This document shows, piece after piece, positions 7,789 to 11,353 of a stretch of DNA of 64,000 nucleotides. A program made the position numbers and the translations under genes. The first letter of the stretch is position 1. Every line of letters starts with the position of its first letter. Location: contig NZ_JACSWB010000278.1 in NCBI RefSeq assembly GCF_016888135.1, positions 186,001-250,000 on the forward strand, read 5' to 3'. This stretch comes from Leptolyngbya sp. CCY15150 (GTDB taxonomy: Bacteria > Cyanobacteriota > Cyanobacteriia > RECH01). The notes under the pieces were generated by a model that saw only the letters and a list, made by a program, of their open reading frames with translations, searched no databases and had not been told where the DNA came from.

Positions 7789-8760
7789 ATGACCTCAGCG
7801 CTTTCTCTCTTTTCCCCCGTCGAAGCCGATCTGAGTTTGCTTTCTGAGAACTTGAAGCAGTTGGTTGGTGCGCGTCATCCAATTTTGTACGCGGCCGCAG
7901 AGCATTTATTTGGGGCATCTGGGAAGCGTGTGAGGCCTGCCATTGTTCTGCTGCTCTCGCGGGCCTCTGCGGCGGATGGATGCATCACCCCTCGCCACCG
8001 CCGCCTTGCCGAAATCACCGAGATGATTCACACCGCCAGCTTGGTGCATGATGACGTGGTGGATGAATCGGAGGTGCGGCGCGGGATTCCCACGGTACAC
8101 AGCAGTTTTGGTAATCGCGTAGCGGTGTTGGCTGGAGACTTCTTGTTTGCCCAGTCTTCTTGGTATTTGGCGAACCTAGACAACCTTGAGGTGGTGAAGC
8201 TGCTCTCCCAGGTGATTATGGATTTGGCGGAGGGCGAAATTCGTCAAGGGCTGAATCGCTTTGAGGTCGATCTCTCCCTCGACGCTTATTTAGAAAAGAG
8301 CTATTACAAAACCGCGTCGTTGATTGCCAACAGCGCCAAGGCGGCGGCGGTGCTGAGCGAGGTGTCTGCAGCTTGGGCCGATGACTTCTATAACTATGGT
8401 CGTCATTTGGGACTAGCGTTCCAAATTGTGGATGACATTCTCGACTTTACCGGCTCTGCAGATTCCCTCGGCAAGCCGGCTGGCTCCGACTTGAAGAGTG
8501 GCAACCTAACGGCTCCGGTGCTCTATGCCCTTGAAGAAAAACCCTATTTAGAAACGCTGATCGAACGTGAGTTTGCTCAGGAGGGCGATCTCGATCAAGC
8601 GATCGCCCTGGTAGTGGCTAGTGAAGGTATTCAGCGATCGCGAGACTTGGCCGCCCACCATGCCCAAACCGCAGTCCAGCATTTAGAATGCCTGCCGGCT
8701 TCCGATGAACGTCAGGCCCTGATGAGCTTGGGAGATTATGTATTGCGACGGCTCTATTAA
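7789..8760 (+). CDS. sds: Solanesyl diphosphate synthase (trans-polyprenyl synthase)
   Basis: 323 residues of the IspA/IspB all-alpha prenyltransferase family. The first Asp-rich motif is DDVVD (88-92) and the second is DDILD (215-219); GKRVRP near residue 45 binds diphosphate. Cyanobacterial orthologues (slr0611 type) make the C45 side chain of plastoquinone. The aromatic prenyltransferase that would use this product (ubiA) is also in the window, about 20 kb away. Confidence 0.93.
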   Translation: MTSALSLFSPVEADLSLLSENLKQLVGARHPILYAAAEHLFGASGKRVRPAIVLLLSRASAADGCITPRHRRLAEITEMIHTASLVHDDVVDESEVRRGIPTVHSSFGNRVAVLAGDFLFAQSSWYLANLDNLEVVKLLSQVIMDLAEGEIRQGLNRFEVDLSLDAYLEKSYYKTASLIANSAKAAAVLSEVSAAWADDFYNYGRHLGLAFQIVDDILDFTGSADSLGKPAGSDLKSGNLTAPVLYALEEKPYLETLIEREFAQEGDLDQAIALVVASEGIQRSRDLAAHHAQTAVQHLECLPASDERQALMSLGDYVLRRLY

Positions 8761-8854
8761 GGCGATGATGGCACCCAGATAGCCATGCTTGCGGTGCGGG
8801 GTCGCTGATGATCTAATCCATCCCCGTTCAAGAGAGCGATCGCTGCAACTTTCG

Positions 8855-8888
8855 CCGTAGTTTTACGGAGATGTCCGTAGTTCTACGG
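8855..8888. promoter_or_regulatory. Tandem palindromic operator, two CCGTA-N4-TACGG sites
   Basis: CCGTAGTTTTACGG (8855-8868) and CCGTAGTTCTACGG (8875-8888) are both perfect 5+5 palindromes with almost the same spacer. Their centres are exactly 20 bp apart, about two helical turns. They end five bases before a well-formed -35 element. The layout is that of a dimeric activator or cooperative regulator; I do not know the protein. Confidence 0.7.
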
Positions 8889-8892
8889 TGAA

Positions 8893-8921
8893 TTGAGATG
8901 ATATGGCTACATAGCTAAGAT
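8893..8921 (+). promoter_or_regulatory. Promoter downstream of the tandem operator
   Basis: TTGAGA (8893-8898), exactly 17 bp, TAAGAT (8916-8921). Transcription would start near 8928 and run rightwards. It would either express a 77-codon frame at 8962-9195 or make antisense RNA to the hypothetical gene on the minus strand at 9017-9490. Confidence 0.55.
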
Positions 8922-9016
8922 GGGGTGTACTACTCTAGTTCCCTGCCCTTAGCTTGCGCTGATGGCCACAGTTAGCCTACCCGATTGCTGTTGGTCAACG
9001 TCCTCTAACCTAGATT

Positions 9017-9490
9017 TCAAGCCAGATCCGGCGGTATGGCTTGGGCATTTTTCCATCGCTGCAATTGTGCCTGAACCAGGGTTTGTAGATCCGATTGGTG
9101 GATCTCTGTACCGGTCGAGAGGTTGCCAGGCTCTTCAAAAAAAACTGTGCTATCTACGGTTTTCATTGATGCAACTTGGAACAGAATATGGATAACAGGA
9201 GTGGGAAATGCCATCAATTGTGGATTTTTAAAGGCAAATGGGGCATTCGCAGCATCATTCAACGTTGGGAATGCGTAAATCACCTTTTTTTCCACAGTGG
9301 GTTCATTTCGACTACTTAGGGTTGTGATAACCCAATTTTGATCCAGGGTCTGCAATACGTAATACTCAGGTCGCTTGAGTCGTTGAGCAAGCTGCTTCAG
9401 TACAGGCGCGATCGCCTCTACCACAGCAGGTGTCTGACCATCCTTAGGAGCTTGGTCAACTAGTGTTTGAATTTGTTGGTCTAAATCCAT
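9017..9490 (-). CDS. Conserved-looking hypothetical protein, 157 aa
   Basis: Soluble 157-residue protein starting MDLDQQIQTLVDQAPKDG, with no membrane span or signal peptide. It reads like a cyanobacteria-restricted family of unknown function; I cannot name a domain. Coding character is supported by a full-length frame with a balanced amphipathic composition. Its 3' part is faced by the promoter at 8893-8921, so antisense control is possible. Confidence 0.7.
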   Translation of the reverse strand: MDLDQQIQTLVDQAPKDGQTPAVVEAIAPVLKQLAQRLKRPEYYVLQTLDQNWVITTLSSRNEPTVEKKVIYAFPTLNDAANAPFAFKNPQLMAFPTPVIHILFQVASMKTVDSTVFFEEPGNLSTGTEIHQSDLQTLVQAQLQRWKNAQAIPPDLA

Positions 9491-10178
9491 AAACGTTTAA
9501 CGGCCTATCCGCAACAGCATCTAACAAGAGCACCGTTTCCCTAGTCTAAACCGTTGTTCCCTCGTCGTTCCGCTTATATTGCCACCATTTGGGGCTAATC
9601 TCCCAGCCAAGTGGTGCAGAAAGCGCTAGACGACTGGCGTGTTTTTCACCAAGGTTTGGATGGGTTAAGCGTGGTTAATTCATCTCAAGCCCGTGATGGG
9701 GGCAGGAATGGGGCTTTTGTCTGGATGGTTTCAGCCGCTTAGCTGGCTGTCGATGGTGCTGGATTTGGGTCGTCCAAGGCTAGGAGGGCGATCGCCATGG
9801 GTTTTGTCACACTCCATATCACCCATACGGGCGTTTCGTCGAATAGTGTTTTATGCTGGATGGGCAAAATGAATGCCGATCTGGGCAGACTGGATCATGG
9901 ATAGATTGCAGGAATACATTGCAGAGATACATTGCCGCATCGATCCATCGCAGCAAGATGGGATGGATCGATGCGGGCAGATGTAGTTTAGCTATGGAAG
10001 GATAGCGGATTGGTGAGAACCAGGCTAGATTCAATCATCAGCGACACTGGTCTAGATCTCTGTCGATGAGTGACTCACTCCAGATCATCTCTGATTCAGC
10101 TAGGTTCTAGCCTATGTCCCGGTGGCTCCTCGGTGGGGCTATCGATGGGATGGGCAGGGTAGATCAGCTCGGTTGTCC
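9491..10178. other. Long hetZ upstream region
   Basis: No convincing gene. It contains a 13-bp direct repeat around 9909-9936 (GCAGGAATACATT / GCAGAGATACATT) and a perfect 15-bp inverted repeat at 9935-9976. The length and structure suggest a regulated upstream region for hetZ. Confidence 0.5.
9935..9976. repeat. Perfect 15-bp inverted repeat
   Basis: CCGCATCGATCCATC (9935-9949) and GATGGATCGATGCGG (9962-9976) are exact complements with a 12-base loop. The element has no T-run, so a terminator is unlikely. It is about 230 bp upstream of the hetZ promoter. Confidence 0.8.
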
Positions 10179-10243: not shown

Positions 10244-11353
10244 GTGGGGTCGATTTCTGAACTGCTATTTCAAGAATTCCGGGATGCTACCCAAGCCTCT
10301 GCTCAGAACTGTCGAGAGGTGTCACTTCGTTTAGCTCATGAAGTGAGTCGCATTTGTACCGAGAGCCAGCGTATTCAGCGTTCTGGGGAAGTAGACACCT
10401 GGATGGTGACGCTGGCCCGGCACCGGCTGAATCAATGCCTGAAGTACAACCGTTTGGGGTCGCGGCGGGGACGGGTTGAGCTACACAGCACCCTCAGCGC
10501 TGTGATCTATCGCTACATTACGCCACCCCAGGTGCAGTCTAGCTACCAGGCTCGGCTGACGCTGATTGAAGATTTCCTGCAGGGCTTTTACATCGAGTCG
10601 CTCAATGCCTTTCGTCGGGAAAACCAGGTGCCCAGCGATTATCGGCCGCGTAGCTTGCTGGAGCTGTCGGAATATATGGCGTTTACCGAACGCTATGGCA
10701 AACGGCGCATTCCGCTGCCGGGGCGACGCAGTCAGCAGTTGATTATTCTGCGGGCTCAGACCTTTTCCCAGCAGCAGCCTCCCGAAACCATGGTGGATAT
10801 GGAGCAGGCGGCGGAGGGCAGTAGTCCTGATGGCGATCGCAGTTGGAGTACGGCACCCCTGCAGCAGGTGCGCGAACAAATGGTGGCGCGGGAGCCCGAC
10901 ACGGATGAAAGTTCCCTGCGGCGCACGGTTATTCAAGAGCTAATGGCCTACCTAGAAGAACGGCAGCAGGAAGACTGTGCCAACTATTTTTCTCTGCGGT
11001 TGAAAGATCTGCCAGCCAGCGAGATTGAGGCTATCTTAGGACTAACGCCACGCCAGCGCGACTATTTACAGCAGCGGTTTAAATATCATTTAATTCGCTT
11101 TGCCCTATCCCATCATTGGGAACTGGTGCATCAGTGGCTGGAGGCGGACCTAGAGCGCAACTTTGGTCTGACGCCTCACCAGTGGGCTCGCCTGCAAGAG
11201 CAGATTACGCCGAAGCAGGCAGAACTCTTGCAGTTGAAGCAAGACAAGGTGGAGGATGGGGCGATCGCTCAGATCCTCGGCTGTACCCTCACGCAACTTC
11301 ACAAACAATGGTCAAAACTGCTAGAACTGGCCTGGGAAATTCGCAACAGCTAG
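10244..11353 (+). CDS. hetZ: HetZ-family regulator
   Basis: 369 residues. Long stretches are characteristic of HetZ: the block around RLAHEVSRICTESQRIQ, LARHRLNQCLKYNRLGS, RVELHSTLSAVIYRYITPPQ, and FTERYGKRRIPLPGRRSQQ. In Anabaena HetZ is a DNA-binding regulator needed early in heterocyst differentiation, but it is conserved across filamentous cyanobacteria that make none. The GTG start at 10244 is the first good one. patU follows on the same strand, as in Anabaena hetZ-patU5-patU3. Confidence 0.9.
   Translation: MGSISELLFQEFRDATQASAQNCREVSLRLAHEVSRICTESQRIQRSGEVDTWMVTLARHRLNQCLKYNRLGSRRGRVELHSTLSAVIYRYITPPQVQSSYQARLTLIEDFLQGFYIESLNAFRRENQVPSDYRPRSLLELSEYMAFTERYGKRRIPLPGRRSQQLIILRAQTFSQQQPPETMVDMEQAAEGSSPDGDRSWSTAPLQQVREQMVAREPDTDESSLRRTVIQELMAYLEERQQEDCANYFSLRLKDLPASEIEAILGLTPRQRDYLQQRFKYHLIRFALSHHWELVHQWLEADLERNFGLTPHQWARLQEQITPKQAELLQLKQDKVEDGAIAQILGCTLTQLHKQWSKLLELAWEIRNS

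Follow-up and report, generated by a model that had tools for sequence, protein, structure and literature searches.

What do two closely spaced, matching palindromes do in the gap between two convergent gene ends? The window is the analysed stretch of 64,000 nucleotides from Leptolyngbya sp. CCY15150. The preliminary description of this DNA had placed two activator sites and a good promoter in the gap. The gap is convergent, as described there; it lies between the sds 3' end at 8760 (plus strand) and the end of the 157-aa gene at 9017 (minus strand).

Locus and neighbouring genes

7789–8760, plus strand: sds, solanesyl diphosphate synthase (TIGR02749, 545 bits, cut-off 383); convergent neighbour upstream
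9017–9490, minus strand: gene of a 157-aa protein, family unknown; convergent neighbour downstream, conserved in many cyanobacteria and often convergent with sds

The 157-aa protein has no Pfam or NCBIfam match. Convergence of the two genes is widespread in cyanobacteria, with gaps of 26 to about 2000 bp, although the element described below is restricted to one genus. Codons 67–118 of the 157-aa gene (9137–9289) are nearly identical in three congeners, even at synonymous sites; sds codons are 64% identical overall in the same comparison. An overlapping element or a recent exchange is possible there. A HetZ-type protein is encoded at 10244–11353 (NF037963, 652 bits, cut-off 550) in this Leptolyngbya-like genome.

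Description of the paired palindromes

8855–8868, no strand: palindrome 1, CCGTAGTTTTACGG, centre 8861.5; 12 of 14 columns invariant
8875–8888, no strand: palindrome 2, CCGTAGTTCTACGG, centre 8881.5; 11 of 14 columns invariant

Both CCGTA-N4-TACGG palindromes are present as claimed, with centres 20 bp apart. The 14-bp sites have the consensus MCGTAGWTYYACGG, lie in the same orientation and are separated by about two helical turns. They form the only tandem palindrome of their class (arms of 5–7, spacer of 2–8, the same arms again within 45 bp) within the 64-kb window. In forty order-2 Markov surrogates the mean number of tandems per window, all designs counted, is 0.025, and the 5-4-5 design is absent from all 40. 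The tandem exceeds the chance expectation for the window.

Conservation within the genus

The comparison covers three species of the genus, that of the window included. The tandem, at up to three mismatches, is present in both other genomes of the genus examined (one of them Leptolyngbya sp. DLM2.Bin15), at the orthologous position downstream of sds. The surrounding non-coding island, 8825–8935, keeps 76 of 111 columns, against 51 of 145 in the rest of the gap (Fisher p 1e-7). No indels occur in it among the three species, and no reading frame is shared by them on either strand. Besides the two sites, the island holds three conserved blocks.

8826–8844, no strand: block 1, GTTYAAGAGRGCGATCGCT; 17 of 19 columns invariant; includes the HIP1-type octamer GCGATCGC, of a kind common in cyanobacteria
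8900–8912, no strand: invariant block GATATGGCTACAT, 13 of 13 columns; with A8913 it forms TATG-N4-CATA
8923–8935, no strand: invariant block GGGTGTACTACTC, 13 of 13 columns

The stretches between the blocks vary, with 3 of 11 columns kept at 8889–8899 and 3 of 10 at 8913–8922. The two sites together keep 23 of 28 positions at constant spacing; in the 6-bp spacer (8869–8874) a single column of six is invariant. In the same species, 524 of 753 columns are invariant in the intergenic DNA that separates the 157-aa gene from hetZ, and the island's overall conservation is therefore ordinary for the genus. The stronger point is the pattern (sites kept, spacer free) rather than the amount of conservation. 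This selective retention in two congeners supports the proposal that the palindromes function as protein-binding sites; their most likely role is to bind a dimeric regulator within a genus-specific cis-regulatory island.

Distribution of the single site and of the tandem

The exact single site occurs six times in the genome, two of these at the focal gap, against 13 for a reversed-pattern control. The other four lie inside ORFs (two), past a gene end (one) and in a gap (one). The genome-wide search for further CCGTAN4TACGG copies, proposed earlier, thus yields numbers at or below the control and no preference for positions upstream of genes; since the single site is not enriched, no regulon is apparent. 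The tandem occurs once in the genome. No copy with up to two mismatches occurs in the 385 remaining genomes of the 388 of the class searched. A looser tandem of variable spacing is matched in 8 of the 388 genomes, in unrelated sequences and not above control. Downstream regions of sds in 30 genomes carry the tandem in the three congeners only; among 53 loci of the 157-aa gene it is found only in Leptolyngbya sp. DLM2.Bin15. Single sites in orthologous intergenic positions of the genus (e.g. loci L153/L037, L155/L019) are never tandem. No similar DNA is found in plasmids and phages, no tandem pattern in viral contigs, and nothing relevant to the motif in a literature search.

Proposed promoter and reading frame

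8893–8921, plus strand: proposed sigma-70 promoter TTGAGA-17-TAAGAT; in the window, hexamers not conserved, not supported
8962–9195, plus strand: 77-codon frame; not conserved in the congeners, no gene on present evidence

The hexamers TTGAGA (8893–8898) and TAAGAT (8916–8921) do stand 17 bp apart on the plus strand, starting four rather than the reported five bases after palindrome 2. Their rating as a good, textbook promoter is not borne out. The corresponding hexamers are CTCAGA/TAAGAG in one congener (G003) and TTTGAG/TGAAGA in the other (G002), so that only one of six columns of TTGAGA and two of six of TAAGAT are invariant in the three species. The match of the pair is at chance level (1 found, 1.2 expected in shuffles). 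Degraded in the congeners, the hexamers are species-specific or a product of chance. No TANNNT near the proposed start is conserved on either strand; this pattern is kept in all three species only at 8858, inside palindrome 1, and at 8950. The comparison splits the supposed textbook promoter into a real part, the sites, and a chance part, the hexamers. The 77-codon frame likewise exists in the window, and its expression as a product finds no support.

Interpretation and alternatives

The region 8825–8935 is read here, tentatively and as plausible rather than probable, as a genus-specific island of cis-regulatory DNA whose tandem sites and blocks would control a short plus-strand RNA. Dimers of a regulator would sit side by side on the two MCGTAGWTYYACGG sites. 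Together with the blocks at 8900–8912 and 8923–8935, which could be a core promoter, further binding sites or the transcript start, these sites would set the start of that RNA. The product may be a small untranslated RNA or an antisense transcript that enters the 157-aa gene at its 3' end. Control of such an RNA is the most plausible purpose that we can infer for the island, the transcript, its direction and its function all being predicted. The DNA-binding reading is preferred because the sites are kept, the spacer is not and the spacing is constant. Against the island stand the lack of conserved -35 or -10 hexamers and of a second target, the single sites being fewer than in the control and the other orthologous intergenic copies single; the equal conservation of the region before hetZ, in a comparison of three species, also counts against it. 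A more specific form is decidedly unlikely: a genus-specific small or antisense RNA switched by an undescribed regulator at the tandem, from a non-standard core promoter made of the blocks 8900–8912 and 8923–8935. If real, the island would place an unannotated, regulated transcript in a gap that is empty in the annotation and adjoins a plastoquinone side-chain gene; the tandem sites would serve as bait sequence for finding the regulator.

The main rival to DNA binding acts at the RNA level and is rather unlikely: the palindromes would fold as one long hairpin in the 3' UTRs of the sds mRNA and the convergent mRNA, as a stabiliser or a non-canonical bidirectional terminator. In the window this hairpin reaches -25.1 kcal/mol (z -7.1 on the plus strand, -6.4 on the minus strand), a very stable fold and stronger than any other structure in the gap. 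A convergent gap is an expected place for such elements, and no canonical terminator, that is, a G+C-rich hairpin directly followed by a U-run, is found in 8761–9016. However, two identical palindromes necessarily give one larger hairpin, and the congeners' z scores are weak (-1.0 and -1.5 on plus; -2.3 and -2.1 on minus). Of the 17 pairs, seven are lost in one or both congeners; a single one of them is compensated in the other congener, and no U-tract follows. With one compensatory pair and several broken ones in three species, the pattern falls short of that of a conserved structural RNA. The sequence, with the GTTT that separates the two arms of palindrome 1, survives better than the pairing does, and little of the hairpin remains in the congeners; constraint thus appears to act on the sequence rather than on RNA folding, which favours protein binding to DNA. 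The hairpin also leaves the blocks 8900–8912 and 8923–8935 unexplained. No Rfam match is obtained at two thresholds, even with E values up to 1 in 8700–9600. The terminator scan has matches at 9319 and 9623. A possible terminator around 9049, which overlaps the 157-aa gene's end, is unconvincing (z -1.0, -2.6 and -0.5 in the three species). A conserved plus-strand hairpin with a T-run, GCGCTAGACGACTGGCGTGTTTTTC, lies at 9623–9640 between the start of the 157-aa gene and hetZ and is a candidate terminator for antisense transcription.

Absence of any special function is unlikely. The gap would then be slowly diverging intergenic DNA, its palindromes derived from a small duplication and retained by chance; the equally conserved neighbouring intergenic region, the limitation of the tandem to one locus of one genus and the unenriched single sites agree with this, but the contrast between sites and spacer and the much lower conservation of the remainder of the gap do not. 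The model of the preliminary description, a CRP/FNR-like dimer at the tandem activating the sigma-70 promoter from a start near 8928, is quite improbable: its layout is present in the window, but both congeners retain the sites and have degraded hexamers. Operators of CRP, FNR and NtcA read TGTGA-N6-TCACA or GTA-N8-TAC. The focal sites, CCGTA-N4-TACGG, read GTA-N4-TAC and do not belong to these operators; a CRP/FNR-like regulator is accordingly not indicated. Control by Rre1, a heat-stress regulator of the NarL/LuxR type, is very improbable. Its proposed motif is GTNCGGK (review PMC13421787), and the focal half-sites, (T/C)TACGG(A/T), have the TNCGG core in common with it; GerE/LuxR-type DNA-binding matches number 17 in the genome. 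Inverted arms also face each other between the palindromes (TACGG-N6-CCGTA). The inverted repeat GTTCGGGAAACCGTAC, with two GTNCGG-type halves that fit the proposed motif, is conserved upstream of groES/groESL in all three congeners (loci L133, L134, L135). However, the first G is missing from the focal half-sites, the facing arms are 6 bp apart where those before groESL in this genus are 4 bp apart, and the motif derives from a review.

Comparison with other systems

The island, read as cis-regulatory DNA, resembles several known arrangements in part. The RpaB HLR1 consensus is KTTACAWW-N2-KTTACAWW (review PMC13421787). The focal sites likewise repeat a TTAC-like core in direct orientation, but with a period of 20 bp and without ACAWW, and do not match that consensus. 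Tandem in-phase operators of dimeric bacterial regulators likewise consist of identical palindromes about two helical turns apart with an unconserved spacer; the focal pair differs in lying in a convergent 3' gap, not upstream of a gene, and is linked to no regulator, promoter or target gene. Cyanobacterial intergenic small RNAs in Rfam are likewise non-coding, lineage-specific and situated in gene gaps; the focal region differs from them in having no Rfam match, and its RNA is a predicted one.

Other palindromes of the genus

Two further palindromic elements occur in the genus. CGTAGGTTTACGG lies within a long inverted repeat, ACAAGACA...TGTCTTGT (locus L153 around 900, locus L037 around 1500), and is kept in two congeners, in DNA that appears to be non-coding. 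A near-perfect palindrome of 35–36 bp, CGTAAAGTTACGCCCC...GGGGCGTAACTTTACG, is repeat-like and present in four copies in three species of one genus (loci L176, L177, L178 and L182).
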